A DNA stretch of 24,685 nucleotides from a virus. The DNA is taken from IMG/VR virus record IMGVR_UViG_3300032214_000191, positions 1 through 24,685 of that record; one strand, given 5' to 3'. The first letter of the stretch is position 1, and each line of letters starts with the position of its first letter. Shown here in pieces: positions 184 to 14,845 of this stretch. The notes beneath the pieces are model-generated. The model worked only from the letters and a program-made list of their open reading frames with translations. It was not told the DNA's origin and searched no databases. A program made the translations under genes and the position numbers.

Positions 184-213
184 ACACTACTGGTACAATT
201 TACTCGTGCCCCC
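184..213 (-). repeat. Hairpin intergenic element, copy 1
   Basis: Minus-strand order: AAAGGGGG, CAC, loop GAGTAAA, then TTGTACC and AGTAGTG. The G tract is 5 long. The hairpin has one G-A mismatch. The usual ATG position is GTG followed at once by TAA. It separates the HNH gene stop (216) from the Cys-rich gene start (154). Confidence 0.85.
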
Positions 214-215
214 TT

Positions 216-602
216 TCAGTTACTCACCATTCTAGACTGATACTTATTACCCCACATTCTACCTTGTTTTTGATAACTATGCTTATGATTTTCGCTTATA
301 GAAACCCACTCAAGATTCAACACTTTGTTGTTAGTTCTGTTATAGTCCTTATGATTGACTTGAAGACCTGCAGAGTTTGTGATACTTAAATGGGTTTCTG
401 CGACTAATCTATGCACCAATAAACGTTTACCTTTTCTTCCTCCAATGGTGACAGATTGATATCCATTTCTATCAATCTGTAGGGACAACTTACGGGGAGG
501 TTCATTATAATCTATCACTGGACATTTACCCCGTCTCCAGTAACTATAAACCTCCCCATCTTCTGTTATAAAATAACCCTTCCATGTAGGATGTTCTTTC
601 AT
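216..602 (-). CDS. HNH homing-type endonuclease with NUMOD4-like N-terminus
   Basis: 128 aa from the ATG at 602 (MKEHPTWKGYF). Residues 6-20 (TWKGYFITEDGEVYS) match the NUMOD4-type DNA-binding motif. Residues from about 67 carry the HNH core: LLVHRLVAETH, then QVNHKDYNRTNN, then LEWVS and ENHKHS. Such free-standing enzymes nick or cut DNA at a specific site and spread themselves between phage genomes. The start was chosen because the upstream gene ends TAA one base before it (TAA-A-ATG); the longer open frame reads through that gene out of frame. It probably inserted behind the 604-777 gene. Confidence 0.87.
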   Translation of the reverse strand: MKEHPTWKGYFITEDGEVYSYWRRGKCPVIDYNEPPRKLSLQIDRNGYQSVTIGGRKGKRLLVHRLVAETHLSITNSAGLQVNHKDYNRTNNKVLNLEWVSISENHKHSYQKQGRMWGNKYQSRMVSN

Positions 603-603
603 T

Positions 604-777
604 TTACCATCTATCAGGAGAGGATAAATCTTCCACATACGCCTCACAGTGTTCAGAACCCTGCAACTCAAATAACTCCTCCCAGTTGATTTGATGCGGG
701 TCGAAATCAGGAAATGCAGAAATGTCCAGAGTGATTCTATAACGCTGCTTCTGCGCTTGACTATAAGCAACTGACAT
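604..777 (-). CDS. Conserved small phage protein, unknown function
   Basis: 57 aa starting MSVAYSQAQKQRYR and ending LSSPDRW. A GGAG ribosome-binding site lies 8 nt upstream of the ATG. The protein is acidic in its second half and has no membrane segment. It resembles small cyanophage proteins of the pattern 'QKQRYRITLD...DLSxPDRW' that I recall; this is memory, not a search. It heads its own unit, driven by a sigma70-like promoter (806-834) and possibly a late promoter (845-851), with the HNH endonuclease directly behind it. Confidence 0.75.
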   Translation of the reverse strand: MSVAYSQAQKQRYRITLDISAFPDFDPHQINWEELFELQGSEHCEAYVEDLSSPDRW

Positions 778-805
778 AAGTACGCTCCGAATGTGTTATG
801 AGTGT

Positions 806-834
806 AGTCTAAGATGCTCTGGGATTTGTGTCAA
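806..834 (-). promoter_or_regulatory. Sigma70-like promoter for the 604-777/HNH unit
   Basis: On the minus strand there is a perfect -35 TTGACA (829-834), a 17-nt spacer and -10 TAGACT (806-811). Predicted transcription would start near 799, giving a leader of about 22 nt with a GGAG ribosome-binding site. It fits an early, host-polymerase-read promoter. Confidence 0.65.
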
Positions 835-844
835 GGTCTTGGGG

Positions 845-851
845 ATATTTA
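845..851 (-). promoter_or_regulatory. T4-like late promoter core ATAAATA
   Basis: The minus strand reads CTCATAAATATCC. ATAAATA/CTAAATA cores are the known late-promoter motif of T4-type cyanophages. Expected initiation near 838 would serve the 604-777 gene, so that gene may have both an early and a late promoter. Confidence 0.5.
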
Positions 852-863
852 TGAGGGACTGGT

Positions 864-896
864 GGATTTTGTGTGAGGGATTGTGAGGATTTTGTG
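864..896. repeat. Two direct repeats GGATTTTGTG, possible operator
   Basis: GGATTTTGTG occurs at 864-873 and 887-896, 23 bp apart, between the divergent -35 boxes at 829-834 and 906-911. Flanking GAGGG/CCCTC adds a loose inverted repeat. A regulator-binding site shared by both promoters is an inference. Confidence 0.35.
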
Positions 897-905
897 ACCC
901 TCCGG

Positions 906-935
906 TTGACAAAAGTGCGGTCCTTATGTTATGCT
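906..935 (+). promoter_or_regulatory. Sigma70-like promoter on the plus strand
   Basis: Perfect -35 TTGACA (906-911), an 18-nt spacer, then -10 TATGCT (930-935). It is the only strong plus-strand promoter noticed and points into the gene-free stretch containing the TTTTCCACA boxes. No plus-strand gene follows, so the product would be a non-coding or origin transcript, or antisense to the genes beyond 1283. Confidence 0.5.
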
Positions 936-1029
936 CGCTAAGATCACAAGGTCCAGAAGGATTATCACAAGACTTCAGCACATTTATAAAGTATTCAAAG
1001 GATTAAAAGCACTATAATAACACATAAGA

Positions 1030-1135
1030 CACATACTTTTCCACACATTCCACATACTTTTCCACAACTATGTTGAAAACTCATATACATTTAAAAACAC
1101 ATTTTTAATCGTTTTTTATTGTTTTTTGACGTTAT
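1030..1135. other. Origin-like block: two TTTTCCACA boxes plus AT-rich stretch
   Basis: The 16-mer CACATACTTTTCCACA is repeated at 1030-1045 and 1051-1066, exactly 21 bp (two helical turns) apart, with a partial ATTCCACA between. TTTTCCACA matches the DnaA-box form typical of cyanobacteria. Bases 1071-1135 that follow are mostly A and T with T-runs, as in an unwinding element. A promoter at 906-935 points in. Origin function is inferred; T4-type phages do not normally depend on DnaA. Confidence 0.35.
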
Positions 1136-1151
1136 TTGGGCATGAAAGCAT

Positions 1152-1180
1152 AAAAAAGCAGAGGATTACCAGTCCCCTGC
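1152..1180 (-). terminator. Rho-independent terminator
   Basis: Minus-strand GCAGGGGA, loop CTGGTAA, TCCTCTGC (8 bp with one G-U), then TTTTTT. It lies 100 nt downstream of the 1283-1429 gene and closes the unit that begins at the element at 2142-2173. Confidence 0.85.
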
Positions 1181-1282
1181 CTATCATCCAACCACTTAAC
1201 TTATGGATATTATCTGTTACGTTATAGAGTCACTTTCTTTACTTAATAGAGGCAAACTCCTTCCTCTCTGTTTAATACTTAA

Positions 1283-1429
1283 TCAGAACCTTTGTCTCTC
1301 ATATTGTTCTTCATTCCATCCATTCCTATAATACTCTCTACGATCATAATCATCAGAATCCATTACATCATCGTGCTCATACTCTTGCTCTTGATAATAA
1401 CGTTCTTGACTATAGTAAGTGTTAATCAT
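1283..1429 (-). CDS. Tyr/Glu/Arg-rich micro-protein, unknown
   Basis: 48 aa starting MINTYYSQERYYQEQEYEHD, very rich in Tyr, Glu, Asp and Arg and probably disordered. The ATG is one base after the stop of the preceding gene (TGA-A-ATG), so translation is likely coupled. It is last in its unit, ahead of the terminator at 1152-1180. Function unknown. Confidence 0.6.
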   Translation of the reverse strand: MINTYYSQERYYQEQEYEHDDVMDSDDYDRREYYRNGWNEEQYERQRF

Positions 1430-1430
1430 T

Positions 1431-1622
1431 TCAGTTAATTGCTGTTAGGTCAATGACAGTAACGATCTCAAGTTCAGTTATATCATTATCGAAATGTTCC
1501 TCCCATTCCTTATACAATGAGTACGATTCTTCGATGAGATCTTGACTGACCAAATAAGTGATTTGTTGTTGTACTTGCTCTAGGATGATTGCGAGCATTG
1601 AATCCTTTTGAAGTTCAGTCAT
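1431..1622 (-). CDS. Small acidic helical protein, unknown
   Basis: 63 aa, start MTELQKDSMLAIILEQ. Predominantly helical and acidic. The ATG shares bases with the stop of the preceding gene (TAATG), indicating coupled translation. The MTEL start is shared with the neighbour upstream, but similarity does not clearly extend further. No function can be assigned. Confidence 0.7.
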   Translation of the reverse strand: MTELQKDSMLAIILEQVQQQITYLVSQDLIEESYSLYKEWEEHFDNDITELEIVTVIDLTAIN

Positions 1623-1800
1623 TAGTTAAACCAGTGTGCAAGATCAGCGATTTCTTGTGCAACTTCTTGAACGTTATTACGATTCAGTTTGTTAAGAATA
1701 ATCTCCATATCTTCATCAGGTACGCAACTCACATCACCATTGATTTCCTCTGCAAGTTGATAGGCAAGATGGACACATTGAAGTTCAAGTTCGGTCATTT
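1622..1800 (-). CDS. Small acidic helical protein, unknown
   Basis: 59 aa from the ATG at 1800 (MTELELQCVHLAYQ). A TTG seven bases upstream opens the same frame, but the ATG is preferred. The stop of the preceding gene is at 1812. Charged helical protein ending EIADLAHWFN. Second of four genes in the unit headed by the element at 2142-2173. Confidence 0.7.
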
Positions 1801-1811
1801 TATTCAATCAG

Positions 1812-2123
1812 TCAGTCCAGTTTGATGCCATCATTGAAAGGAACATCACCGTTGATTGTTGATACAAACCATTGAAAGTTCTTTTGATAAACATACTCTC
1901 CAGATCCATGCTCTTTCAGAATAGCATTGAGACGGGATTTTGTGGTGTTTGATTGATGTCCACCATCAAGCAATTCTAACCAAGTATCACCAACCATGGC
2001 GATCAGATTGTTATACAGATAGACGAAAGATACACCTTCGATGTTAATGACTTCAGTGTTGTCTTTCTTCCAATCAATCTCCTTTGAGATTGCTTGATTC
2101 ATTTGCTTTTCGATGACTCGCAT
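1812..2123 (-). CDS. Conserved phage protein of the 'MRxIExxMNxAI' family, unknown function
   Basis: 103 aa from the ATG at 2123 (MRVIEKQMNQAISKEIDW). Landmarks of a widespread phage/prophage family I recall are VSFVYLYNNLIAMV near residue 32, GGHQSNTTKSRLNAIL near 54-70, and YQKNFQWFV near 80. Function unknown; possibly a small nucleic-acid-associated protein. The open frame runs back through the hairpin element with no stop, but the ATG at 2123 is where family members begin. First gene after the element at 2142-2173, where the usual element ATG is mutated to ATA, in frame and 21 nt upstream. Confidence 0.85.
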   Translation of the reverse strand: MRVIEKQMNQAISKEIDWKKDNTEVINIEGVSFVYLYNNLIAMVGDTWLELLDGGHQSNTTKSRLNAILKEHGSGEYVYQKNFQWFVSTINGDVPFNDGIKLD

Positions 2124-2141
2124 TGTGGTTGTTTCAGTGGT

Positions 2142-2173
2142 TATACTACAGGGACAATTTAGACGTGCCCCCC
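2142..2173 (-). repeat. Hairpin intergenic element, copy 2
   Basis: G tract of 6, loop GTCTAAA, 6-bp stem GGGGCA/TGTCCC. ATA replaces the ATG; the next start is at 2123. Three bases separate it from the TAA of the preceding gene. Confidence 0.9.
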
Positions 2174-2175
2174 TT

Positions 2176-2463
2176 TTACTTACGAAAGGCACCGAGGACA
2201 TTAAACTCAGCAGCGATTTGCTTCTCTGCAATACGCTTACCATCAATTTGGAAAGTATAACGCAACTGTCCTTTTACAGTCTTGGAAACTTTACAAGTGA
2301 GGCAAACTTCACCATTGCGTTGACCCTGAAGATCATACTTTGCAAAGTAATGATTACAAACTCCAGGCAAACGATAATCAACAACTCCATTGCGTTGTTG
2401 ATAGTTCTCAAGCGCAAGTTGCTCGCTGAGTTTAATGGAATCGAAGAGGTCAGTGATGTTCAT
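2176..2463 (-). CDS. Small phage protein, unknown
   Basis: 95 aa. The start codon is the ATG built into the hairpin element (MNITDLFDSIKL), and no other ATG is near. The second half reads GQRNGEVCLTCKV, then TFQIDGKRIAEKQIAAE, a pattern seen in small phage proteins with a 'W/F.lDGKri...' segment. Two close Cys (CLTC) could bind metal. Single-gene unit between two element copies. Function unknown. Confidence 0.8.
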   Translation of the reverse strand: MNITDLFDSIKLSEQLALENYQQRNGVVDYRLPGVCNHYFAKYDLQGQRNGEVCLTCKVSKTVKGQLRYTFQIDGKRIAEKQIAAEFNVLGAFRK

Positions 2464-2492
2464 ACTACTGAGACAGTTTAGACGTGCCCCCC
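2461..2492 (-). repeat. Hairpin intergenic element, copy 3
   Basis: G tract of 6, loop GTCTAAA, stem GGGGCA/TGTCTC with two G-U pairs. The element ATG (2461-2463) is the start codon of the 2176-2463 gene. Confidence 0.92.
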
Positions 2493-2498
2493 TTTGTT

Positions 2499-2681
2499 TT
2501 ACAGTCCGTTGATAAAGTCAGCAACTGCTTCCTTGTATTCACTTTCAGTCGCAAATGTGCGACCGTGAATAGTTCTAGGATAGGTTACGTTTGTATCACC
2601 AACCGCAGCAACATTGCGACAGTCTTGTTCATCATAACCCATCTCGATGAGAGTGTTGACGTAAGGATTGTAGTTTGTCAT
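2499..2681 (-). CDS. Small phage protein, unknown
   Basis: 60 aa starting MTNYNPYVNTLIEMGYDEQD. A single soluble domain; the final half HGRTFATESEYKEAVADFIN is helical. Follows the 2720-2902 gene by 38 nt; both form the unit headed by copy 4. Not recognised. Confidence 0.7.
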   Translation of the reverse strand: MTNYNPYVNTLIEMGYDEQDCRNVAAVGDTNVTYPRTIHGRTFATESEYKEAVADFINGL

Positions 2682-2719
2682 GGTTTTGTGTTAGTTAAGT
2701 GGAAAAGAGTTTATGTAAA

Positions 2720-2902
2720 TCAGTTGCCGAAGAAAGCATCAAACTCATCAGCAATCTGATCAATCAGTTCATCAGTTGCATCAAGATCGAAGAGACAGCA
2801 AACAAAGTCTACACAGTCATTCAGATCAGTGTGATTGTTGTACATAAACTCCAGAAGTGTAGGAGTGATGTCGGTTTGGAAGTCGATTGGAGTTGTGTTC
2901 AT
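2720..2902 (-). CDS. Small acidic protein, unknown
   Basis: 60 aa, strongly acidic (many Asp), starting at the ATG inside hairpin element copy 4 (MNTTPIDFQTDITP). Contains DFVCCLFDLD and ends DEFDAFFGN. A DNA-mimic or inhibitor role is possible for such acidic phage proteins but is not supported by any specific motif. Confidence 0.72.
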   Translation of the reverse strand: MNTTPIDFQTDITPTLLEFMYNNHTDLNDCVDFVCCLFDLDATDELIDQIADEFDAFFGN

Positions 2903-2935
2903 ACTATTGAAACAGTTTAGACGTGCCCCCCCCCC
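2900..2935 (-). repeat. Hairpin intergenic element, copy 4 (longest G tract)
   Basis: G tract of 10, loop GTCTAAA, stem GGGGCA/TGTTTC kept only through three G-U pairs. The element ATG is the start codon at 2902. Confidence 0.9.
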
Positions 2936-2946
2936 TTTGTATTCCT

Positions 2947-3060
2947 TCAGTTTTGTGGTGCAATAATATCAGCAACCGTGTGTAATGTTGCTGATGTAAT
3001 GTTACGAACTCCTGGTGATAGGAATAATGCAACCACAAAAATCAAGAAAATTGTTTTCAT
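2947..3060 (-). CDS. 37-aa hydrophobic micro-protein (membrane or exported)
   Basis: MKTIFLIFVVALFLSPGVRN followed by a short polar tail. Residues 4-15 form one hydrophobic segment, which may be a signal peptide or a single membrane anchor. The gene fills the space behind the 3102-3332 gene and ends 11 nt before element copy 4. It is below usual gene-calling limits; several similar exported micro-proteins occur in this window. Confidence 0.55.
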   Translation of the reverse strand: MKTIFLIFVVALFLSPGVRNITSATLHTVADIIAPQN

Positions 3061-3101
3061 CTGATCTGGAGACTTGAATGATAAAGTCTTTCTTCTTGCC
3101 A

Positions 3102-3332
3102 TCAATCGTAGCGGGAAGATACATCAGGACCAGGATTTTCAAGATGTGCAACACTGTCTGCAACACCTTCAGATGTTAATGCAAACTGTACTTTGCGACC
3201 TTCGTAGTAAATGTCAAAGACAGTTTGCACATATGGTGTTAGATTCCCTTCAGAATCCCATGCGTTTCGTGTATGTGAAGTCTCTACGATTTGATAGACT
3301 TTAGAGGTGAGAGGTGAAGTGTAAGTGCTCAT
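3102..3332 (-). CDS. Conserved small cyanophage-type protein, unknown
   Basis: 76 aa, starting at the ATG inside element copy 5 (MSTYTSPLTSKVYQIVE). Contains RNAWDSEGNLTPYVQTV and then VQFALTSEGVADSVAHLENP, a pattern I recall in small cyanophage proteins. Soluble, no membrane segment. First gene of its unit, with the 37-aa hydrophobic protein behind it. Confidence 0.78.
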   Translation of the reverse strand: MSTYTSPLTSKVYQIVETSHTRNAWDSEGNLTPYVQTVFDIYYEGRKVQFALTSEGVADSVAHLENPGPDVSSRYD

Positions 3333-3361
3333 ACTACTAGGACACTTTACCCGTGCCCCCC
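3330..3361 (-). repeat. Hairpin intergenic element, copy 5
   Basis: G tract of 6, loop GGGTAAA (variant triplet), stem GGGCAC/GTGTCC. The element ATG is the start codon at 3332. Confidence 0.92.
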
Positions 3362-3375
3362 TTTGTTTATGAAAC

Positions 3376-3588
3376 TCAGTTCTTTACACTTTCCAACAGA
3401 TCATTTAATACTTCTTCATCGTACAATTCTTCGATCTCAGTGAGAAGTTCTGACTCAGTATATTTGTTATACTCAGCAATCAATGATTCAACGGCAAATG
3501 TAACAAGATCATCCATGTCCATTCCGTCTATAATCATCTCTGCATATGCTTCAGTCAGAGAAGCAAGTTGTTCGTTAGAAAGTTTCAT
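3376..3588 (-). CDS. Small acidic helical phage protein, unknown
   Basis: 70 aa starting MKLSNEQLASLTEAYAE. Acidic helical protein with MIIDGMDMDDLVTFAVESL then LLTEIEELYDEEVLNDLLES, the layout of a small protein family common in phages of many hosts. Function unknown. ATGA overlap with the preceding gene (3585-3725). Last of the four-gene unit headed by copy 6. Confidence 0.8.
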   Translation of the reverse strand: MKLSNEQLASLTEAYAEMIIDGMDMDDLVTFAVESLIAEYNKYTESELLTEIEELYDEEVLNDLLESVKN

Positions 3589-3725
3589 TTTGCGTTGCAG
3601 TAGTTAGGGTTTGCCTGACAGAACAATTCTGCTTGCTGTTCTTGATACTCATTCACTGAAGCATGAGCACTCAAACCAATGCGAAGTCCCAGTGCTAGAG
3701 TAGCAATCAAAAATGCGATTCTCAT
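3585..3725 (-). CDS. 46-aa exported micro-protein
   Basis: Signal-peptide-like start MRIAFLIATLALGLRIGLSA with likely cleavage after the AHA segment (about residue 22), then a short mature part with two Cys (FCQANPNYC) that could form a disulphide. The ATG overlaps the preceding stop (TGATG), and the stop overlaps the next ATG (ATGA). Function unknown; it may act in the periplasm of the infected cell. Confidence 0.7.
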   Translation of the reverse strand: MRIAFLIATLALGLRIGLSAHASVNEYQEQQAELFCQANPNYCNAK

Positions 3726-3904: not shown

Positions 3905-3910
3905 AATCAA

Positions 3911-4081
3911 TCAGTCAACAACAGAGTAACAAGCAACCCAGGAAGGTACACCAGATAATGCTAAAGAACTGTTGCGATCATCAGCATAATCATTGGCATC
4001 ATCTTCAGAGTAGAAAGGTCCAATGTATTCAGGGGATTCTAGATGCTCAGACCAGAATCGGACGGTAAAGGTTTCAGTCAT
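3911..4081 (-). CDS. Small phage protein, unknown
   Basis: 56 aa, starting at the ATG in element copy 6 (MTETFTVRFWSEHLES). The middle PFYSEDDANDYADDRN suggests a small alpha/beta fold with an acidic helix. First gene of a four-gene unit whose later members are coupled by overlapping stop/start codons. Not recognised. Confidence 0.72.
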   Translation of the reverse strand: MTETFTVRFWSEHLESPEYIGPFYSEDDANDYADDRNSSLALSGVPSWVACYSVVD

Positions 4082-4110
4082 ACTACTAGGACACTTTAGA
4101 CGTGCCCCCC
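4079..4110 (-). repeat. Hairpin intergenic element, copy 6 (consensus-like)
   Basis: G tract of 6, loop GTCTAAA, stem GGGCAC/GTGTCC, then TAGTAGT and ATG. It matches the consensus throughout. The ATG is the start at 4081, 7 nt after the stem. Confidence 0.93.
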
Positions 4111-4112
4111 TT

Positions 4113-4307: not shown

Positions 4308-4309
4308 AA

Positions 4310-5102: not shown

Positions 5103-5327
5103 TCAGGCAGGAAGAACACAGAAAGTGCCACACCAACCGCGAACCCATTTGAGAGTTTCATCGTAGGAAGTGCGGGGTTTCGACATAGGCATCGACACAT
5201 TCTTTTCAGGATTGTATGCAATGGCGATGAACTTATCTTCAACTTGTTGAATCCACATTTGATTCACTTTACCTTCTTTCCAGTTAGTGTGATAGTGGTA
5301 GACTTGATCCATGATAGTTGTGCTCAT
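5103..5327 (-). CDS. Small phage protein, unknown
   Basis: 74 aa from the ATG in element copy 7 (MSTTIMDQVYHYHTNW); a second in-frame ATG lies 15 nt further on (MDQV). It reads VEDKFIAIAYNPE and LKWVRGWCGTFCVLPA; the end carries two Cys. First gene of a five-gene unit. Not recognised. Confidence 0.75.
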   Translation of the reverse strand: MSTTIMDQVYHYHTNWKEGKVNQMWIQQVEDKFIAIAYNPEKNVSMPMSKPRTSYDETLKWVRGWCGTFCVLPA

Positions 5328-5356
5328 ACTACTAGGACACTTTACTCGTGCCCCCC
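5325..5356 (-). repeat. Hairpin intergenic element, copy 7
   Basis: G tract of 6, loop GAGTAAA (variant triplet), stem GGGCAC/GTGTCC. The element ATG is the start at 5327. Confidence 0.92.
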
Positions 5357-5368
5357 TTCACATCACAA

Positions 5369-6485: not shown

Positions 6486-6680
6486 TCAGAGATTGTTCCA
6501 GAGAGCATTAGCAACTACACCAGCAGCACCTGCTACATTATCACGCACAATCAGTCGCAGAGTTTCTGCACCTTGCGGATTTTTGTGCATTTCACGGATA
6601 TTGTCTGCGGTGCGTGGATCATTAGCAGCATCCGCAATCATTTCAGCGATTTGGTTGATCATTTTAGTGGTTGTGCTCAT
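6486..6680 (-). CDS. Small helical protein, unknown
   Basis: 64 aa from the ATG in element copy 8 (MSTTTKMINQIAEMIADA); an alternative start is the second ATG 18 nt on (MINQIAE). Helical, Ala/Asn-rich, with DPRTADNIREMHKNPQG and a hydrophobic end AGAAGVVANALW. First gene of a five-gene unit. Not recognised. Confidence 0.75.
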   Translation of the reverse strand: MSTTTKMINQIAEMIADAANDPRTADNIREMHKNPQGAETLRLIVRDNVAGAAGVVANALWNNL

Positions 6681-6712
6681 ACTATAGGGACAATTTAGAC
6701 GTGCCCCCCCCC
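6678..6712 (-). repeat. Hairpin intergenic element, copy 8
   Basis: G tract of 9, loop GTCTAAA, stem GGGGCA/TGTCCC, then TATAGTATG. The element ATG at 6680 opens the frame of the next gene. Confidence 0.9.
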
Positions 6713-6714: not shown

Positions 6715-7077
6715 TCATTCATCCTCCCAATCAAGACTTACATTATCCCAATCACTATAATCAGGTTCTACATCACCCAGAAGTTCCTGAGCATACCGTA
6801 GAGTTCCACGCTCAAAGTATCCATTGCGAAAATCATCAGTTTGCCCACGATGCTTATACCAAGACAGAACACCGTGCCCAACATCACAACGACGCACAAT
6901 CTTTACATAATTATCATCACACCACACATCATCACCTTCCATCTCACGCAGAGCATTTAGAGTTGCACAGTTCCAGTTGTGTTCAAGAAAGTTTCCATTC
7001 TCATCAAACCCACATTTAGGGTCATCACCATTCCAATCTTTTACTCTTGTGGAACAACGAGGGCACTTGTAAGTCAT
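6715..7077 (-). CDS. Zinc-ribbon N-terminal protein, unknown
   Basis: 120 aa starting MTYKCPRCSTRVKDW. The N-terminal CPRC, with C22 (DPKC) and C36 (NWNC), suggests a small zinc-binding head. The remainder is acidic, with DDVWCDDNYVKIVRR and a tail DVEPDYSDWDNVSLDWEDE. Single-gene unit after copy 9, whose element ATG is replaced by in-frame ATA 15 nt upstream of this start. Function unknown. Confidence 0.8.
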   Translation of the reverse strand: MTYKCPRCSTRVKDWNGDDPKCGFDENGNFLEHNWNCATLNALREMEGDDVWCDDNYVKIVRRCDVGHGVLSWYKHRGQTDDFRNGYFERGTLRYAQELLGDVEPDYSDWDNVSLDWEDE

Positions 7078-7089
7078 TTGTTTTGTTCT

Positions 7090-7122
7090 TATACTACTAA
7101 GACACTTTGCTCGTGCCCCCCC
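7090..7122 (-). repeat. Hairpin intergenic element, copy 9
   Basis: G tract of 7, loop GAGCAAA, stem GGGCAC/GTGTCT with two G-U pairs. ATA in place of ATG; the leader to the start at 7077 is A-rich with no SD. Confidence 0.9.
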
Positions 7123-8046
7123 TTACCAATTCTTTGCGATTGTGAAGTTTGCATGAGAGAATACCTCTCTATCTACAATTTTGTAGATGCCATACTTGTT
7201 AGAAATACAATAACCTTCATGGAAACCTTGAATATCCCACAAATAGCACTCAATCTCATCCTTTTCGTGAATGAACAGGAACATATCTTCCTTGATTGAT
7301 GACACGAGTTTCCACAAACGAATCAGGTTGATGTCACAATCGCATTTTTCTGCAATTTCATCTTCATTCACGGGGATTTGCTCCTTGATGCAGGAGTTAA
7401 TCTCTTTTTTGATTTGTTTTGCTTTGTTTGGCGTCACAAACTCACACAGAGTGGACATTTGCTTGGCAAACTTACACACATCCTCCAAATCTTCACGATA
7501 AGGATTCAGTTCCACCTCAGGTTGGACAAACAAAACATTTTTATTGCTGATCAGTTTGCTAGTCAGAGGAGCAGCAGTCATCTCACGAATATCATCAGCA
7601 CCACTGTAGATTGTGTGTGGAGCAATGATAATCTCTTGACGAACTTTCTCAGGGAACTTATAGGTAATTGTATTGGGAGTAAAAGTATCCAACCCTTTAC
7701 CGAAACCAATCCAATCACCTTGCAACACTTGTTGAGTGCGAGGGAGAAACTCCAGGCAGAAGATGAGAATCTGCGTTACGCGAGGTTGACCACCGAAATG
7801 AGTAAAAATGTCATCCTCGGTATAGCAAAGGCGAATCTTTTTCTTGTTAAATGCTGCTTTGGTGCAGACAAAAAACTTATCATTCTGGGGATTTGTACCC
7901 CACACAATAGCAGGAGCACCATCCATCTTGGTGCTGATCGTAGATTCTACTTCAGAGAACCAATCAAGAACCGACAGATTGCCAGTCAGGATCTCATCTT
8001 CAGGATGCTCAAGATGTAGATTTTTGGTCATTTGGTTAGTGCTCAT
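7123..8046 (-). CDS. KxDG nucleotidyltransferase/ligase-fold-like phage protein
   Basis: 307 aa from the ATG in element copy 10 (MSTNQMTKNLHLEHPED; second start MTKN five codons on). Residues 40-43 read KMDG inside STKMDGAPAIVWG, matching motif I (KxDG) of DNA/RNA ligases and capping enzymes, where the Lys is adenylylated. FFVCTKAAFNKKK follows, and LQGDWIGFGKG (109-119) sits where ligase motif III would be. I recall larger cyanophage proteins with the same 'HLEHxED...KxDGxPxIVxG...KFFVxxKxAFN' start (DUF6267-like). Covalent catalysis is unproven; no OB-fold domain is evident. Single-gene unit. Confidence 0.8.
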   Translation of the reverse strand: MSTNQMTKNLHLEHPEDEILTGNLSVLDWFSEVESTISTKMDGAPAIVWGTNPQNDKFFVCTKAAFNKKKIRLCYTEDDIFTHFGGQPRVTQILIFCLEFLPRTQQVLQGDWIGFGKGLDTFTPNTITYKFPEKVRQEIIIAPHTIYSGADDIREMTAAPLTSKLISNKNVLFVQPEVELNPYREDLEDVCKFAKQMSTLCEFVTPNKAKQIKKEINSCIKEQIPVNEDEIAEKCDCDINLIRLWKLVSSIKEDMFLFIHEKDEIECYLWDIQGFHEGYCISNKYGIYKIVDREVFSHANFTIAKNW

Positions 8047-8075
8047 GCTACTGGTACAGTTTAGACGTGCCCCCC
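8044..8075 (-). repeat. Hairpin intergenic element, copy 10
   Basis: G tract of 6, loop GTCTAAA, stem GGGGCA against TGTACC with one G-A mismatch. The element ATG (AGCATG here) opens the ligase-like gene at 8046. Confidence 0.9.
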
Positions 8076-8078
8076 TTA

Positions 8079-8282
8079 TCAAACCTCTACCAGTTTTGCA
8101 AGACGATTGCGAATATCAAAGAGTTCCATTTCATCCATATCTGCACTGTTTAGATCTACAGGAGCAAACTCTTCAAGATTCACATTACCATTTGCATAGA
8201 TGGGAGCATAGTACAATTCATCTCCATCTTCTTGCGACAGAGTATAAACGCAACCATGATCAGGATAGGTGAGGAAAATCAT
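8079..8282 (-). CDS. Small acidic protein, unknown
   Basis: 67 aa starting MIFLTYPDHGCVYTLSQED. Beta-rich first half (ELYYAPIYANGNVNLEEF), then an acidic helix DEMELFDIRNRLAKLVEV. Single-gene unit after copy 11; its ATG lies about 20 nt beyond that element. Not recognised. Confidence 0.75.
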   Translation of the reverse strand: MIFLTYPDHGCVYTLSQEDGDELYYAPIYANGNVNLEEFAPVDLNSADMDEMELFDIRNRLAKLVEV

Positions 8283-8303
8283 TGGAGTTTTGAGAACTTG
8301 GTT

Positions 8304-8333
8304 ACATCATAGGGACACTTTGGACGTGCCCCC
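8304..8333 (-). repeat. Hairpin intergenic element, copy 11
   Basis: G tract of 5, loop GTCCAAA, 7-bp stem GGGGCAC/GTGTCCC. It ends in ATG-ATG-TAA, a two-codon start-stop reading frame, ahead of the true start at 8282. Confidence 0.87.
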
Positions 8334-8334
8334 T

Positions 8335-8511
8335 TTAGTTAATCGGTAGTTTTGCTTGGGATTTACCCTTTTTGTGGTCATCAATGAACTTTCTAGCAGA
8401 TGCTTCGGTCCTACACACTTTGAGTTGCTGACCGTTGTGAATTACCATCAGTTGATTACCAAACGGAACTGCCGCGTAAGTACCTTTGCCCACAATAAAT
8501 CCTTCTTTCAT
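8335..8511 (-). CDS. Small basic protein, unknown
   Basis: 58 aa starting MKEGFIVGKGTYAAVPFG. Beta strands (QLMVIHNGQQLKVCRT), then a basic helix ASARKFIDDHKKGKSQAK. Follows the terminator at 8580-8604, so it needs its own promoter. None is convincing in the roughly 65 bp between. It ends two bases before element copy 11, so its stop region overlaps the SD-like AAAGGGGG. Confidence 0.72.
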   Translation of the reverse strand: MKEGFIVGKGTYAAVPFGNQLMVIHNGQQLKVCRTEASARKFIDDHKKGKSQAKLPIN

Positions 8512-8639: not shown

Positions 8640-9881
8640 TCACCGCCTCACCACCGAGATGGCAGGTTCACCCTTCTCAAAGATCGTATCAACAACCGAC
8701 TGAACACTGCGGGCAGTAGCAATACCAACCTTGGAGTACACAGGGATACACACAAGACCGAACGATTTGCTATATTGACTCAGGTTGCCAGGTTCGATAC
8801 GTCCCTCGCGCATACCTTTGGCATCATCGTGATGCAGTCGGATGCAACGTCCAATGGTTTGAGAGATGCCAATGAAGTCCATATTGCGGAGGAAAAGTAC
8901 CGCTTCCAAACCGCTGACGTTGATTCCCTCAGCGAGAATAGAGTGGTGGAGAACAACAAACTTCTTGGAATTGTCCTTACCCCATGCACTCAGAGTGTCA
9001 AAGAATACCTCACGATTGACTTTCTTACCGTCAATAACTGCGCCCGTCTTGGCAGTAATATACATCCAAGAATAACCGCGACACTCCAACTGGAAGCAGA
9101 AATCAGTTTCAGACACCAGCGAAACGATTTGCTTGGTTGCCTTAGCACAAATCAGAATCTTACCGACTTTGTTCTCGTCAATAGTTTCCAGCAGATTCTC
9201 AGAATCTCGATCAAAGTTAGTCTGCTTACCAGTCACCATAGCAAGTTGCTTGACAATCACTTTAGGGGGCACAATGTAACCACCTTCGACAAGTTCAGGA
9301 GCAGGAACTTTGCAGATTACTTGTCCATAAACAGCAGCATCATTCATCCCAGGTTTGCCAACAGCAAGGGAATGTTTCGGAGTTGCAGTGAAGAAGTAGC
9401 AGCGACGTGCATTAGCAGAGAAGTGCTCAGTTGCAGGGAAAAAGTGACGCTGAACAGAATTATGTGCTTCATCAAAGTAGATCGTATCTACATCAATCTC
9501 TGCAACCTGAAGGCGCGACAGAGAGTTGTAGGTGGTTACAATCAGTTTGTGGTTGTCAGCATTGGCATCAACCCACTGACGAATCTCATAGGGGCGAGTA
9601 GAAGATTCGTGATGAGTTTCTCCACTATGAACGTGGAAAACCTTAGCGTTAGTGATGAACTCAAGAAACTCAGCAGAGAGTTGCTCAGCAAGCAAGATGC
9701 GAGGAGCAACAACAACAATGGTCTGAGGAGTTTCAGACTGCAACTCGCGTAGAGCATCATAGATCATCTTCAGCGTTTTACCACCACCAGTAGGCACAAT
9801 GATCTGACCTTTGTTGTGCTGTTGCATAGCAGCAACACCACGTTCTTGATGCGGACGGAGTTGGATTTGCATTGGTTTCAT
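8640..9881 (-). CDS. SF2 DEAH-type helicase (type III restriction/UvsW-like)
   Basis: 413 aa, ATP-driven nucleic-acid helicase. Domain 1: RPHQERGVAAM (Q-like region), Walker A TGGGKT (31-36), motif Ia VVAPRILLAEQ (57-67), DEAH (137-140) and TATP (165-168). Domain 2: HHSILAEGINVSGLE (312-326) and motif VI QTIGRCIRLH (341-350). All core motifs are intact. Cyanophages carry helicases of this type besides UvsW; a role in replication, recombination or branch migration is likely but the substrate is unknown. Single-gene unit between element copy 12 and its own terminator. An out-of-frame 325-aa plus-strand frame is its shadow. Confidence 0.95.
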   Translation of the reverse strand: MKPMQIQLRPHQERGVAAMQQHNKGQIIVPTGGGKTLKMIYDALRELQSETPQTIVVVAPRILLAEQLSAEFLEFITNAKVFHVHSGETHHESSTRPYEIRQWVDANADNHKLIVTTYNSLSRLQVAEIDVDTIYFDEAHNSVQRHFFPATEHFSANARRCYFFTATPKHSLAVGKPGMNDAAVYGQVICKVPAPELVEGGYIVPPKVIVKQLAMVTGKQTNFDRDSENLLETIDENKVGKILICAKATKQIVSLVSETDFCFQLECRGYSWMYITAKTGAVIDGKKVNREVFFDTLSAWGKDNSKKFVVLHHSILAEGINVSGLEAVLFLRNMDFIGISQTIGRCIRLHHDDAKGMREGRIEPGNLSQYSKSFGLVCIPVYSKVGIATARSVQSVVDTIFEKGEPAISVVRR

Positions 9882-9884
9882 CGT

Positions 9885-9915
9885 ATATTACTAGGACACT
9901 TTGCTCGTGCCCCCC
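9885..9915 (-). repeat. Hairpin intergenic element, copy 12
   Basis: G tract of 6, loop GAGCAAA, stem GGGCAC/GTGTCC. ATA at the start position; the helicase ATG follows 5 nt later (ATACGATG). Confidence 0.9.
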
Positions 9916-9920
9916 TTTCA

Positions 9921-11418: not shown

Positions 11419-11428
11419 GATTAAAAAT

Positions 11429-11623
11429 TCAGTTGTTGATGGTTCGATTGAGATCTAGAATAGCATTTTGCATTGCAGAGCGAGAATACCCTGTTGCAAA
11501 AGGATAGGTTCTTTCGTGATCGCTACTTTCAGATGAGTCTACATTATAGCACACATCTACGGCGTCTTGCAAAGACTTAATTATCCGATTTAGGGTGTCA
11601 ATACTAACACTCACAGTTTCCAT
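11429..11623 (-). CDS. Small protein ahead of the R-M pair, unknown
   Basis: 64 aa starting METVSVSIDTLNRIIKSLQD and ending AILDLNRTINN. Two helices around a Ser/Asp-rich middle. It is the first gene of the unit headed by copy 13 and ends 10 nt before the restriction-enzyme ATG. A small gene before an R-M pair could be a controller, but no helix-turn-helix is evident, and I do not assign one. Confidence 0.7.
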   Translation of the reverse strand: METVSVSIDTLNRIIKSLQDAVDVCYNVDSSESSDHERTYPFATGYSRSAMQNAILDLNRTINN

Positions 11624-11657
11624 GCTGTTATAGACGATTTTAGAGGGGTCTGGTGCT

Positions 11658-11689
11658 TATACTAGAGGAACACTTTACCTGTGCCCCCC
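11658..11689 (-). repeat. Hairpin intergenic element, copy 13
   Basis: G tract of 6, loop AGGTAAA (first loop base changed to A), 7-bp stem GGGGCAC/GTGTTCC. ATA at the start position; the true start is 35 nt beyond, at 11623. Confidence 0.88.
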
Positions 11690-11698
11690 TTTCAATTA

Positions 11699-12319
11699 TC
11701 AATCCTTTTTCTTTGCTGCAGCGTTTCTTCTGCTGATTTCTTTAGCAGTGATAGGATGCTTCAGTTCGCTTTCAGACTTCTTACCAGTTGCTTGAAGTAC
11801 AAGATCCCTCAACTTTCTTTCACCTGGTCTTCTTACTTTCTTATCTCTTTCTTGTGCAGTTAAACCAGATGCTTTTTGTGGTTTATAGTCAGGTGATACA
11901 GTTTCTTTCTTTTTCTTTGTAAGCAGTTGTGATGCAGTTTTCTCTACTTCTTTTGCTTTAGGTTTTGCTGCTGCTGGTGCTTCTCCACCACCTTTCTTTG
12001 CTGCTGCTCTTGCTTGTGCTGCCTTTCTTCTTTCTTCTTTTGCTGCTGCTAGTTGTCTTTCTCTTGCAGAACCTCTCTCTTGCTCAGGTTGCTGAACTCT
12101 TGTAGATGCTTGTCTCTGCTGACCAATATCTTTGCGTGGTTTATATGACTTAGCGGGTTCCATCTTACCACCACCCACTGCCTTCATTCTACGTTTTTCG
12201 GGTTCAGTTTTCTTTCTTTCTGCACCGATTCTGCCACCTTCTCCAGTTCTACGAATCTGGGAAGATTGCATCACCTCTTTATCATATGCTTCAGCACAGA
12301 ATTGAGAAAATGTTTTCAT
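11699..12319 (-). CDS. Lys/Arg/Ala-rich basic protein, conserved in cyanophages
   Basis: 206 aa from the ATG at 12319 (MKTFSQFCAEAYDKEVMQ). Highly basic and low complexity: GRIGAERKKTEPEKRR, then VGGGKMEPAKSYKPRKDIG, Ala/Lys repeats, and a C-terminal RPGERKLRDLVLQATG. I recall T4-type cyanophage proteins with the same start and the 'AVGGGK..PAKSYK.RKDIG' block. It probably binds DNA or RNA, or is a virion or condensation protein; the function is not established. A late promoter core (12343-12349) precedes it, which fits late expression. Confidence 0.85.
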   Translation of the reverse strand: MKTFSQFCAEAYDKEVMQSSQIRRTGEGGRIGAERKKTEPEKRRMKAVGGGKMEPAKSYKPRKDIGQQRQASTRVQQPEQERGSARERQLAAAKEERRKAAQARAAAKKGGGEAPAAAKPKAKEVEKTASQLLTKKKKETVSPDYKPQKASGLTAQERDKKVRRPGERKLRDLVLQATGKKSESELKHPITAKEISRRNAAAKKKD

Positions 12320-12342
12320 TTGTGGTAGGAAAAGTCTCCTAT

Positions 12343-12349
12343 TATTTAT
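12343..12349 (-). promoter_or_regulatory. T4-like late promoter core ATAAATA
   Basis: The minus strand reads TTTTAATAAATAATAGG, 24 nt before the basic-protein ATG, with AGGAG as a ribosome-binding site in between. It lies just after the terminator at 12377-12408, as expected for an independent late unit. Confidence 0.65.
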
Positions 12350-12376
12350 TAAAACATAAGAAACCACAAAAGTCAA

Positions 12377-12408
12377 GAGGGGATGGTCAGTTTCCCGACC
12401 GTCCCCTC
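12377..12408 (-). terminator. Strong hairpin terminator-like structure
   Basis: GAGGGGACGGTC pairs with GACCATCCCCTC (12 bp, one C-A mismatch) around an 8-nt loop. The minus-strand tail TTGACTTTTG is only moderately T-rich. It sits just after the stop at 12414 and ends the unit headed by copy 14. Confidence 0.75.
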
Positions 12409-12413
12409 TAGTA

Positions 12414-12611
12414 TCAATCTTCTTCTTTTGGTCTCAGTCCACCTTTAGAAACGCGACCTTCAGCATAAAACTGTTTGACACGTTCGCGGCGAGTAGTAAG
12501 CAAGAGATCGTATTCTTCTTGTTGTTGCTTAGTGAACGTGAAATCTTGCTTCCTCCAAGTTTCTTTCAGTTCTTGAATGTGGGGAAGGACGTTAGGGATG
12601 TGCTCAGTCAT
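12414..12611 (-). CDS. Conserved small cyanophage protein, unknown
   Basis: 65 aa starting MTEHIPNVLPHIQELKETW. Landmarks: FTFTKQQQEEYDLLLTTRRE, then VKQFYAEGRVSKGGLRP. The 'FT.TKeQQ..Y..L...RRERV..FYa.grV.KGG.R' pattern recurs in cyanomyovirus small proteins as I remember them. Basic and helical. Function unknown. Second gene of the copy-14 unit. Confidence 0.82.
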   Translation of the reverse strand: MTEHIPNVLPHIQELKETWRKQDFTFTKQQQEEYDLLLTTRRERVKQFYAEGRVSKGGLRPKEED

Positions 12612-12631
12612 TTTAGTTAATAAAGTGTGGA

Positions 12632-12769
12632 TCAGAAATCCCAGTTAGAGTTAAGAAATGCGTTGAAAGATTTGTCGTCGTTCTCTTCTTCAAAGAGACC
12701 TTCATTCATTTCTTCAACAAAGTCAAATGAAGAAAACTCTTCAATTTGAATGTCGTCAAAAGAATCCAT
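12632..12769 (-). CDS. 45-aa acidic micro-protein
   Basis: MDSFDDIQIEEFSSFDFVEE, then Glu/Asp-rich sequence ending FLNSNWDF. Net charge is strongly negative, with alternating Phe and acidic residues. First gene after element copy 14; the next gene begins 20 nt on. Could be a nucleic-acid mimic or a protein-binding peptide, but nothing in it shows this. Confidence 0.62.
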   Translation of the reverse strand: MDSFDDIQIEEFSSFDFVEEMNEGLFEEENDDKSFNAFLNSNWDF

Positions 12770-12784
12770 AGTTCGTTTGTCGCT

Positions 12785-12815
12785 TACATTAGTGGAACAG
12801 TTTGGTCGTGCCCCC
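12785..12815 (-). repeat. Hairpin intergenic element, copy 14
   Basis: G tract of 5, loop GACCAAA, stem GGGGCA/TGTTCC. The element ATG is followed at once by TAA (ATGTAA, 12784-12789); the gene starts 20 nt further at 12769. Confidence 0.88.
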
Positions 12816-12816
12816 T

Positions 12817-13080
12817 TTATACAACCAAGGGTTCGCAGATATTGTCATGAATAGAATCTCTTGATTTCACATAATTCAATTGATTCCATTGATCATTATA
12901 ACAAATCACAAGCAATCTCTCATTTCTATGAATGGGACAACACTCAAGGTTTACTTCATCTTTGAGTCGAACACTGTGCTCAATCGTGATATATTCTTCA
13001 CACTTGAAGTAGACCCATCCTTCAACACCTTTTCCATTCTCCCATACAACATAATCGTTGATGCTTGGTTCATATGTCAT
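12817..13080 (-). CDS. Conserved small phage protein, unknown
   Basis: 87 aa starting MTYEPSINDYVVWENGKG. The beta-rich core is VEGWVYFKCEEYITIEHSV, then LECCPIHRNERLLVICY and NYVKSRDSIHD. The 'GWVYF....YItIE.sV......CPIH...hvLvlCy...W..L.YVKsR' pattern recurs in T4-type phage proteins that I recall. CCPIH might bind metal. ATGA overlap with the gene before. Last gene of the copy-15 unit. Confidence 0.82.
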   Translation of the reverse strand: MTYEPSINDYVVWENGKGVEGWVYFKCEEYITIEHSVRLKDEVNLECCPIHRNERLLVICYNDQWNQLNYVKSRDSIHDNICEPLVV

Positions 13081-13358
13081 ACAAATGCTGCTTCTAAAGG
13101 ATTAAGTTTCAGAGGCATCGCGGTATAGTTTCGCGTTTCCGTGATATTTACACAAGCACCAATGGTTTTACTATTGATTGGGGCGAAGTATTCATTTGTT
13201 TTTTGTTTCCAAAACCCCCAGATGGTTCTGGTTGTGGCACCGTTATTGTAATCAAACTTGCGATGGCAACGCAACCAAATAGAGACCACACCACGCTTGA
13301 ACTCTTCAAACTCATAACTATAACCTTTTGGAGGATGATGTGGAAATTCAGCAATCAT
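13077..13358 (-). CDS. Phage protein with C-terminal LNPLE tail, unknown
   Basis: 93 aa from the ATG at 13358 (MIAEFPHHPPKGYSYEFEEF). Beta-rich: VVSIWLRCHRKFDYNN, then TRTIWGFWKQK and TKTIGACVN-type segments. The end reads PLKLNPLEAAFV, nearly the same as the Dam methylase tail LNPLESLLV but with different codons. Longer upstream frames overlap the 13348-13509 gene and are rejected. Function unknown. Confidence 0.8.
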   Translation of the reverse strand: MIAEFPHHPPKGYSYEFEEFKRGVVSIWLRCHRKFDYNNGATTRTIWGFWKQKTNEYFAPINSKTIGACVNITETRNYTAMPLKLNPLEAAFV

Positions 13359-13509
13359 AATACCTATCTTTTGACATGTATTTGATTTGATCTTGAAGTT
13401 GCAAGATTTCATGCTGTTGCTCTGTAATTTTATCTTGCAGGTAAGAAATCCTTTCTTGATATTGTTGCTTGAGATTAAACTCAAGACGATTTACAGAAGT
13501 TTCAATCAT
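13348..13509 (-). CDS. 53-aa coiled-coil protein
   Basis: MIETSVNRLEFNLKQQYQER, then heptad-like ISYLQDKITEQQHEILQLQD ending KDRYYDC. Almost entirely one Gln-rich helix suited to a coiled coil. TGATG overlap with the preceding gene and 11-nt overlap with the next. Too short for common gene-calling cut-offs. Function unknown. Confidence 0.72.
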   Translation of the reverse strand: MIETSVNRLEFNLKQQYQERISYLQDKITEQQHEILQLQDQIKYMSKDRYYDC

Positions 13510-13745
13510 CAGGTAGTAAACTCCTCAACGACAGCAGATTCTACATCTTCAGAGAGAGCAAACTTTCTTGCGTTCAGGATATTCTCACGAAGATTTCCAT
13601 AGAACTTCTCATAAAAATCACCGTCATCTTCCGCAGAAATCAAATCAAAACATTCGTCATCGTGTTCTGCGACAACATTCCAAATACCACCATATTCACT
13701 AGAAGGAAAAGGAATATAGTGGTCCACGATGTACAGATACTTCAT
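13509..13745 (-). CDS. Conserved small cyanophage protein, unknown
   Basis: 78 aa starting MKYLYIVDHYIPFPSSEYGG. Continues IWNVVAEHDDECFDLIS, then acidic helices with FYGNLRENILNARKFAL. The 'YLfIVDHYvPFP.SEYGG.WNV.AE.DdECFDLI' start is one I associate with cyanomyovirus hypothetical proteins. Soluble and acidic. Function unknown. Confidence 0.82.
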   Translation of the reverse strand: MKYLYIVDHYIPFPSSEYGGIWNVVAEHDDECFDLISAEDDGDFYEKFYGNLRENILNARKFALSEDVESAVVEEFTT

Positions 13746-13771
13746 TGTTGTTTGTAAATTACTCCTTTAGT

Positions 13772-13885
13772 TTAACGAAAATCAGTGTTGTTGTCAATTG
13801 CATCATCTCCATCAGATGCTACTGATAGAAGTGCAAATCCAATAGTTACTAGAACACCAAGTCCAAATCCAGCAATAAAAACCAT
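13772..13885 (-). CDS. 37-aa single-pass membrane micro-protein
   Basis: MVFIAGFGLGVLVTIGFALL then a short acidic tail DGDDAIDNNTDFR. One membrane helix spans residues 2-23, Gly-rich as if for helix packing. The ATG overlaps the preceding stop (TGATG). Three successive genes here (13772, 14019, 14174) encode membrane proteins. Function unknown. Confidence 0.7.
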   Translation of the reverse strand: MVFIAGFGLGVLVTIGFALLSVASDGDDAIDNNTDFR

Positions 13886-14022
13886 CAGTAAAACTCCGCA
13901 AGATAATAGTCAACAGTTACTTCAAGTTTCGCTGCCTCACGCTCAATCTCGTCCCAAAACTCACGAGCAATCTTTTCTTGTTCCGCTTTCATGATTAGTT
14001 CTTTGATACGCTTGGAGATCAT
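13885..14022 (-). CDS. 45-aa charged helical micro-protein
   Basis: MISKRIKELIMKAEQEKIAR then a helical tail with FWDEIEREAAKLEVTVDYYL. A single amphipathic helix, perhaps a partner of the membrane proteins on either side. ATGA overlap before and TGATG after. Not recognised. Confidence 0.68.
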   Translation of the reverse strand: MISKRIKELIMKAEQEKIAREFWDEIEREAAKLEVTVDYYLAEFY

Positions 14023-14177
14023 TTGATTTGATTACTAGGAGGATGCTTAAGGTTCTCTATCGCTTTTGCGCGATAGTATGAATCATAAAGTCGATCATCA
14101 CGCTGGATTAGAAAAACATTCCAACCAACAATAGCAGCGAAACTAATCAATCCAGCAGCAATGTACTTTTTATTCAC
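14019..14177 (-). CDS. 52-aa single-pass membrane protein
   Basis: Starts at a GTG overlapping the preceding stop (GTGA); the first residues are MNKKYIAAGLISFAAIVGWN. One N-terminal membrane helix (5-24), then a charged soluble tail LIQRDDRLYDSYYRAKAIEN. The next gene overlaps by ATGA. Function unknown. Confidence 0.68.
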   Translation of the reverse strand: MNKKYIAAGLISFAAIVGWNVFLIQRDDRLYDSYYRAKAIENLKHPPSNQIK

Positions 14178-14365
14178 TTAGAAAAACCTCCAGAGTTTTT
14201 GAAGATAAGATTAGCAAGAGCGATAATAGCAAGGTTTTGCCAAAAAGACAAGGATACACCAAACCAAGACAGAATCAATCCAAGCAACCATGCTTCAAAT
14301 AGGATGCTGGCAGTTACAAGAACAATAGCACCAACAATCACACCAATAGCAGTAGAAGTTTTCAT
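14174..14365 (-). CDS. Two-helix membrane protein
   Basis: 63 aa starting MKTSTAIGVIVGAIVLVTAS. Helix 1 spans about residues 6-33, and helix 2 about 41-56 (WQNLAIIALANLIF). The tail KNSGGFSK is basic. Small cyanophage membrane proteins with 'GLi.s.fG..lsf.qal.iiaL.NL.f' have the same look. A holin is conceivable from size and topology, but neither lysin context nor a dual start supports it. Confidence 0.78.
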   Translation of the reverse strand: MKTSTAIGVIVGAIVLVTASILFEAWLLGLILSWFGVSLSFWQNLAIIALANLIFKNSGGFSK

Positions 14366-14368
14366 AGA

Positions 14369-14797
14369 TCAAACAGCAAGAGCAGCAGAAGGGATTTCGA
14401 CAGGTTCAGGTGCTACCATATCTTCGTACTGGTGCATATCATAGGCATACCAGTTTCCATTACGGAAGATATAAGAGTATTCTTCATTATCAGAGAAGAA
14501 CTCATCCATATCAGCATCAAGTCGAGGAGGACAATCATCTCCACGTTGAGAATAGTATTGAGGTCCGTATTCTTCACCCTTGGTAGGATAAGAACCCCAA
14601 CGATCCCCAGTCCAACGCTCATTAGTCCAGCAAGAACTCATATCACCACCATCAATCAGTTCAGCAACTTTCTCTTTGGTGTTATAGTGAGTGTTCAGAA
14701 TACGACCCAACCATTCAGGATAACCATCCCAGTGATGATAGGCAGAGAGAATAGAACCATCAGGAAGTTCGAGACCGATGCGGGAGCGAGTTGCCAT
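14369..14797 (-). CDS. Widespread phage protein 'MATRSRIG...SIYHHWDGYPEWLG', unknown function
   Basis: 142 aa. Characteristic block: TRSRIGLELPDGSILSAYHH then WDGYPEWLGRILNTHYNT, followed by an acidic region with FSDNEEYSYIFRNGNWYAYD. I recognise this as a common phage/plasmid family of unknown role found in many cyanophages. First gene of the long unit headed by copy 15, which continues through membrane and unknown proteins down to 12817. Confidence 0.9.
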   Translation of the reverse strand: MATRSRIGLELPDGSILSAYHHWDGYPEWLGRILNTHYNTKEKVAELIDGGDMSSCWTNERWTGDRWGSYPTKGEEYGPQYYSQRGDDCPPRLDADMDEFFSDNEEYSYIFRNGNWYAYDMHQYEDMVAPEPVEIPSAALAV

Positions 14798-14810
14798 TGC
14801 GTTCGTTGCT

Positions 14811-14845
14811 TACATTACTAGGACACTTTAGACGTGCCCCCCCCC
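14811..14845 (-). repeat. Hairpin intergenic element, copy 15 (rightmost)
   Basis: G tract of 9, loop GTCTAAA, stem GGGCAC/GTGTCC. It has ATG followed at once by TAA (14810-14815), with the gene start 18 nt further. It alone has T, not A, before the G tract (AAGTGG). No copy lies to its right in the window. Confidence 0.88.

Follow-up and report, generated by a model that had tools for sequence, protein, structure and literature searches.

The 24,685-base contig of IMG/VR virus record IMGVR_UViG_3300032214_000191 (hereafter the window, positions being those of the whole stretch), which is kin to the T4-like cyanophages, carries fifteen copies of a short oriented repeat, and these are most likely promoters of a virus of photosynthetic bacteria. 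The element probably serves one clade of T4-like cyanophages as a phage-specific promoter, from which RNA would begin at, or within 2 nucleotides (nt) of, the G at position x14 of the repeat. A repeat search and a degenerate pattern each gave 15 copies and no more, every one of them on the minus strand, for which dinucleotide shuffles gave a chance expectation of 0.06 matches (largest, 1). Gene mapping placed all 15 in intergenic gaps of 31–75 nt directly 5′ of a gene, and with the degenerate pattern found none inside genes (0/15) and none in the window right of 14,845. The initial annotation had described fifteen same-direction copies, located before gene starts and missing from the right-hand part, and was right on each of these points, its coordinates matching within 1 nt. 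Its view that each copy heads a transcription unit holds for 15/15 copies, but the converse fails, as the heads at 777, 13,745, 15,521 and 12,319 lack a copy.

The element consists of two parts, a left box of 9–13 nt and a near-invariant core, AAANTGT...TATAGTRTRA. Positions were numbered from the first A of AAANTGT (x0), so that an ATG, where present, occupies x16–x18. The minus-strand consensus in the window is AAGGGGGGCACG NNY AAANTGT CCY [T/A][A/G]TAGTRTRAGCAC, in which GGGGGCAC, AAA, TGT and the two Ts of TAGTRT are constant in 15/15 copies. The window copies carry (A/T)(A/G/C)TAG instead of TATAG, and the RNA start assigned to them is taken from relatives. The copies are as follows.

178–215, minus strand: copy 1, left box AGGGGGCACG plus core; G at x14 = 187; heads gene 2–154
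2137–2174, minus strand: copy 2, x14 = 2146; heads the gene ending at 1812, ATG at 2124
2456–2493, minus strand: copy 3, x14 = 2465; ATG within the element, gene 2176–2463
2895–2932, minus strand: copy 4, x14 = 2904; ATG within the element, gene 2720–2902
3325–3362, minus strand: copy 5, x14 = 3334; ATG within the element, gene 3102–3332
4074–4111, minus strand: copy 6, x14 = 4083; ATG within the element, gene 3911–4081
5320–5357, minus strand: copy 7, x14 = 5329; gene 5103–5327, a further in-frame ATG 15 nt downstream
6673–6710, minus strand: copy 8, x14 = 6682; gene 6486–6680, a further in-frame ATG 18 nt downstream
7085–7122, minus strand: copy 9, x14 = 7094; gene 6715–7077
8039–8076, minus strand: copy 10, x14 = 8048; gene 7123–8046 (DUF6267, T4-GC 71)
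8298–8335, minus strand: copy 11, x14 = 8307; gene 8079–8282
9879–9916, minus strand: copy 12, x14 = 9888; helicase gene 8640–9881
11653–11690, minus strand: copy 13, x14 = 11662; gene 11429–11623
12780–12817, minus strand: copy 14, x14 = 12789; gene 12632–12769
14806–14843, minus strand: copy 15, x14 = 14815; gene 14369–14797 (T4-GC 66)

The distribution of the element was then followed in relatives. The degenerate pattern found the window's own box in ten IMG/VR contigs, and BLAST found the same core behind other left boxes in the cyanophages S-SM2 and SynMITS9220M01 and in a single-cell marine virus. A core-only scan matched at least 120 stretches, and the box and core statistics given here are those among the matches listed. 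The collected set comprises at least 559 unique copies at 132 loci, drawn from S-SM2, SynMITS9220M01 and more than 100 IMG/VR contigs, and contains at least 15 left box types, including AACTGGGCCCCTG, CTGGGGCCTTG, AACTTGGATCC, AGTTAGGATCGTCC, AGTTACTCACC, ATAGCTCACC, GTTAGTAACC, AACTGAAGCC, CTGAGGCC, AGGGGGAGCC, CAGGGAGCC, AGGGGGGACG, AGGGGGGTCG and AGGGGGGCACG. Box identity was 0.89 within contigs versus 0.45 between them, and core identity 0.87 versus 0.83. The box words are almost confined to the front of the core (82/83, 119/122 and 47/47 occurrences lie in the element), and one box type is used throughout 95/105 contigs. The gene T4-GC 71, compared across 51 contigs, carries many boxes (34 distinct 11-mers), and among such orthologous genes the box follows the viral genome and not the gene family. 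More than one box family occurs in the remaining 10/105 contigs, which could be explained by imported units. Contigs L125, L152, L076 and L062 have one box type save for a single copy of another, possibly a recently imported unit.

The complete genomes showed the same arrangement. All strong copies lie on one strand and in one block of 14–16 kilobases (kb), at 36–50 kb in SynMITS9220M01 (190 kb) and at 43–58.5 kb in S-SM2 (191 kb), and in both genomes the block is located between the tail-fibre genes and gp25/gp6. Copies inside genes, in both orientations or randomly placed had been named beforehand as evidence against a function at unit heads; in these two genomes the sole exception to the one-strand, one-block pattern is a weak, isolated, core-only match at 77.4 kb in SynMITS9220M01, and about 200 kb of shuffled sequence gave 0 matches. 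Eight other complete cyanophages contain no copy of the element, and the same block in these phages uses sigma-70-type promoters. At S-SM2 51927 and SynMITS9220M01 42533, a hairpin-forming stretch, and not a start codon, comes between the element and the next gene, and at the S-SM2 site a TTGACA/TATACT-like site comes after that stretch.

All evidence on the RNA start is comparative, and it points to the G of TATA|G (x14) or to a site no more than 2 nt away. A structured RNA family, here family A (GGTTCTACTGCC...TTYAGGTGTAAGCGATTCCC), was found in at least 120 stretches and is headed either by a sigma-70 promoter or by the core. Behind a sigma-70 promoter, the −10 is followed by exactly 6 nt and a G in 21/21 loci, and the terminal helix of the RNA begins from that G in 15/16. 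Behind the core, the family begins TATA|GTGTGAG, with the terminal helix running from x16 in 18/18 cases and from x14 in 7/18. In a second RNA family (GARACAGTT...CTACTCTGACA), the start agrees in the one sigma-70-headed example seen. Across ten core-headed RNAs, a 7-base-pair terminal helix could be formed from x16 in 10/10, from x14 in 7/10 and from x13 in 1/10 (1.8 expected), and folding confirmed that these RNAs form closed structures. Strongly structured noncoding RNA families of about 60–250 nt, with a terminal helix at the RNA start, stand at unit heads of cyanophages; such loci include L047:9338–9510 (plus strand), L022 from 23839 onwards, L064, L133 and L046, and they occur in more than 100 IMG/VR contigs, family A also in P-SSM2. 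Rfam gave no match at the gathering threshold for the loci with core-headed noncoding RNAs.

The start codons agree with the RNA helices. An ATG at x16 is in the frame of the gene in 246/259 elements, while a non-ATG codon at x16 is so in 125/277, and for 65 genes, T4-GC 71 included, the ATG at x16 is the sole in-frame one in a 90-nt stretch. In P-SSM2, T4-GC 71 begins 6 nt after TATAAT and looks leaderless. The remaining genes start mostly 15–25 nt after x16, and none starts 7–14 nt after it. Leaders of sigma-70-headed genes in other cyanophages measure 13–23 nt (mode 14–20), which matches the distances behind the element if +1 lies at x14–x16. A start at x22, as a sigma-70 reading would have it, was favoured at first from the TATACT-N5-CA of other phages and was later dropped in view of the RNA helices and of the genes whose sole ATG is at x16; it disagrees with family A, with the ten core-headed RNAs and with the start-codon frame.

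With +1 placed at x14, the lineage-specific box would serve for recognition at about −28 to −18; AAANTGT, which does not vary, would occupy −14 to −8, and TATA, which melts easily, −4 to −1, and the transcript would open with the conserved GTRTRA. Where the element contains the ATG (TATAGTATG), the message would be almost leaderless, with a leader of 0–2 nt, and where it has no internal ATG, the gene would start at least about 15 nt further down. A phage-encoded factor, whose specificity shifts between lineages, may read the box and recruit the host RNA polymerase. With +1 at x14–x16, the interval from −12 to −7 contains no sigma-70 −10 hexamer, and TAGTRT straddles the start. Whether the element belongs to an undescribed initiation system of lytic cyanophages, which would do without a sigma-70 −10 and in which a rapidly diversifying putative phage factor reads the box at −28 to −18, is in our judgement an evenly balanced matter.

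A search for such a reader covered several candidate classes. Pfam scans of the window proteins gave no transcription factor. Genes that three genomes with the element share and that are missing from four other genomes yielded no clear DNA-binding candidate, although a fast-evolving factor could escape the threshold; they encode a basic protein of 201 amino acids, one resembling a protease, and small unknowns. ACG-2014f (NC_047713) encodes at 137235–137813 a second sigma-70-type factor, a 232-amino-acid open frame with regions 2 and 4, beside a gp55-like late sigma. Several observations weigh against a phage-specific promoter starting at x14. No single-subunit RNA polymerase was found, there being no PF00940 match, and a T7 plus Syn5 profile that recovers Syn5 gave nothing in S-SM2, SynMITS9220M01 or contig G001; no sigma-54 (PF04552) was present in five cyanophages, the control being positive; and the only sigma-70-type factors in S-SM2 and SynMITS9220M01 belong to the late sigma gp55 family. 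The conserved TAGTRT together with C/A at x21–22 could also be taken for a sigma-70 −10 that places the start near x22, and by one test 14 elements have no gene immediately after them. In addition, the conservation of the core is partly imposed by the collection pattern, which fixed part of it, so the conservation profile was anchored on the left box, and the copies and contigs are related by descent, so that the statistics overstate their independence.

The sigma-70 interpretation takes TATAGT or TAGTRT as the −10 of an ordinary promoter with a start about 7 nt downstream (x22–x24), the left box being a phage activator site that replaces the −35 in the manner of T4 middle promoters. It draws on the 95–99% conservation of T-A-x-x-x-T in TAGTRT, on the left box falling at the −35 position in that register, on the frequent CA at x21–22 and on the TATACT plus N5 plus CA of many other cyanophages. 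We nevertheless consider it unlikely: the only nearby ATG of 65 genes would lie upstream of the x22–x24 start, and their boxes are fully conserved, among them T4-GC 71 in SynMITS9220M01, a one-gene unit; x14–x22 forms part of the RNA terminal helices; and the leaders would be 9–14 nt, shorter than in related phages. Action at the RNA level, as an endonuclease processing site or a site of ribosome or translation entry, with transcription from upstream promoters, would account for the position of the element at gene starts with a used ATG and, through a cut at x14, for identical RNA ends, and read-through is plausible because the units are tightly packed. This too we regard as quite improbable, as among relatives the element stands in for sigma-70 promoters before one and the same RNA and before orthologous genes, also heads noncoding RNAs, lies at a highly variable distance from the start codon and has no RNA fold common to the box types. 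That the element serves mainly for homologous recombination between units, its box being homogenised by gene conversion, agrees with near-identical copies at unit borders that are uniform per genome, and with the 10/105 mixed contigs, but leaves the one-strand orientation, the start-codon frame constraint, TATA|G and the RNA starts unexplained, and we give it very little credence.

The initial annotation had called the element a hairpin and likened it to the promoter/stem-loop (PeSL) cassettes of T4-type phages (Arbiol 2010; Comeau 2014; cited in PMC4503421), a promoter–terminator cassette. Window copies with GTG do fold, pairing GGGGCAC with GTGTCCU at −10.6 kcal/mol, and the units look exchangeable, a few contigs having one foreign box type. 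In copies with CTG or TTG the closing pair is lost, so that it is broken in 7/15; no pair changes on both sides, no compensatory change was found among the 15 window copies and the covariation score equals that of shuffles. Arm pairing averages 5.67/6 pairs for the window's box type and 1.9–4.8 for the other ten types, against a random-arm expectation of 3.49; in relatives with other left boxes it is mostly at about or under that level, so that the shared core comes without the pairing. No T-run or terminator tail was found after the element, and Rfam covariance models gave no match for the elements. A conserved hairpin was therefore rejected, as only the best window copies can form it, covariation is lacking and relatives do not have it; it arises as a side effect of one box type. 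A Shine–Dalgarno reading of GGGGGG was likewise rejected, because in relatives the same core stands behind boxes that contain no such sequence. Of the earlier proposal, a regulatory element at unit heads acting at transcription keeps its support, and the stem-loop half falls for want of compensatory change and of a terminator tail. As far as PeSL cassettes are described in the source cited, they share with the element a repeated, oriented regulatory sequence at unit heads, the units here looking exchangeable, whereas the element lacks both the terminator stem-loop and the sigma-70 early promoter: the pairing is not conserved, no T-run follows and TAGTRT lies across the start. With no sigma-70 promoter at the predicted start, and against the comparative data, such a cassette is highly improbable.

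Other known systems resemble the phage-specific promoter proposed here in part. The sigma-70-type promoters of S-PM2, ACG-2014f, Bellamy, P-SSM2 and S-SRM01 occupy the same genomic block and unit heads and share the RNA start for one structured RNA family; they have a −10 plus N6 plus G, often with an upstream TGTGNCAGTT-N5-AASTGNCACA, whereas the element has another core and no −10 at −12 to −7. This imperfect dyad, a candidate operator, lies right at the upstream stop codon before sigma-70-type promoters of ACG-2014f (L033), P-SSM2 (L028), S-SRM01 (L027), S-PM2 (L023) and others. T4 middle promoters (MotA box plus sigma-70 −10) likewise join a phage-specific upstream box to a constant downstream part, but the element seems to have no MotA box and has no −10 correctly placed for its predicted start, and both middle promoters of the T4 type and motA/asiA are stated to be missing from T4-like cyanophages (PMC5780444). 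A T4-type late promoter, with a TATAAATA-like −10 read by gp55, does not fit either, since the TATAGTRT core spans the start. Compared with the promoters of the single-subunit polymerases of SP6, K11 and T7, the element resembles this class, SP6 and K11 near the start, in TATA|G at −4 to +1, G at −11 and C at −7 and −5, and both show lineage-specific variation; T7-class recognition covers −17 to −5, whereas the left box lies beyond −17 and conservation extends to −28. Stoperators of cluster A mycobacteriophages, which bind the lysogeny repressor and lack an invariant promoter-like core, are similarly short oriented sites near start or stop codons, uniform per phage and varying among relatives, but the element has such a core and its phages are lytic. 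The published annotation of S-SM2 confined its search for such sites to sigma-70, T4 late, Pho and NtcA (PMC3037559). A literature search found no description of the element; an earlier one is possible, as the Syn9 transcription and PeSL papers lay outside its reach.

At the heads at 777, 13,745 and 15,521, sigma-70-like sequences stand in place of the element. Contrasting features at heads without a copy are as follows.

806–834, minus strand: sigma-70-type promoter-like TTGACA-17-TAGACT, gene 604–777
13769–13797, minus strand: sigma-70-type promoter-like TTGACA-17-TAAACT, gene 13509–13745
12343–12349, minus strand: late-promoter-like ATAAATA, TAATAAATA, gene 11699–12319

ATAAATA shows no enrichment across the window (2 found versus 4.4 expected), and its two occurrences, at 12343–12349 and 846–852, both lie outside the elements. 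Gene 11699–12319 (minus strand), with the late-promoter-like TAATAAATA upstream, encodes a basic Lys/Ala-rich protein, relatives of which are present in three element-bearing phages and were not found in four others. Directly upstream of copy 1, 216–602 (minus strand) encodes an HNH endonuclease that matches NUMOD4 weakly and is probably of the homing type.

Few viruses are as abundant as the T4-like cyanophages, which reportedly lack the T4 middle-promoter system for timing the expression of their many small genes. If promoters carry a specificity box that can be exchanged and is legible from sequence, expression timing would become testable; such a promoter class predicts near-leaderless messages, a hidden factor that sets specificity, and start sites at nucleotide level in the cultured isolates S-SM2 and SynMITS9220M01. 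If the lineage-specific box is indeed read by a diversifying factor, the early-gene block of each phage would therefore answer only to its own factor.

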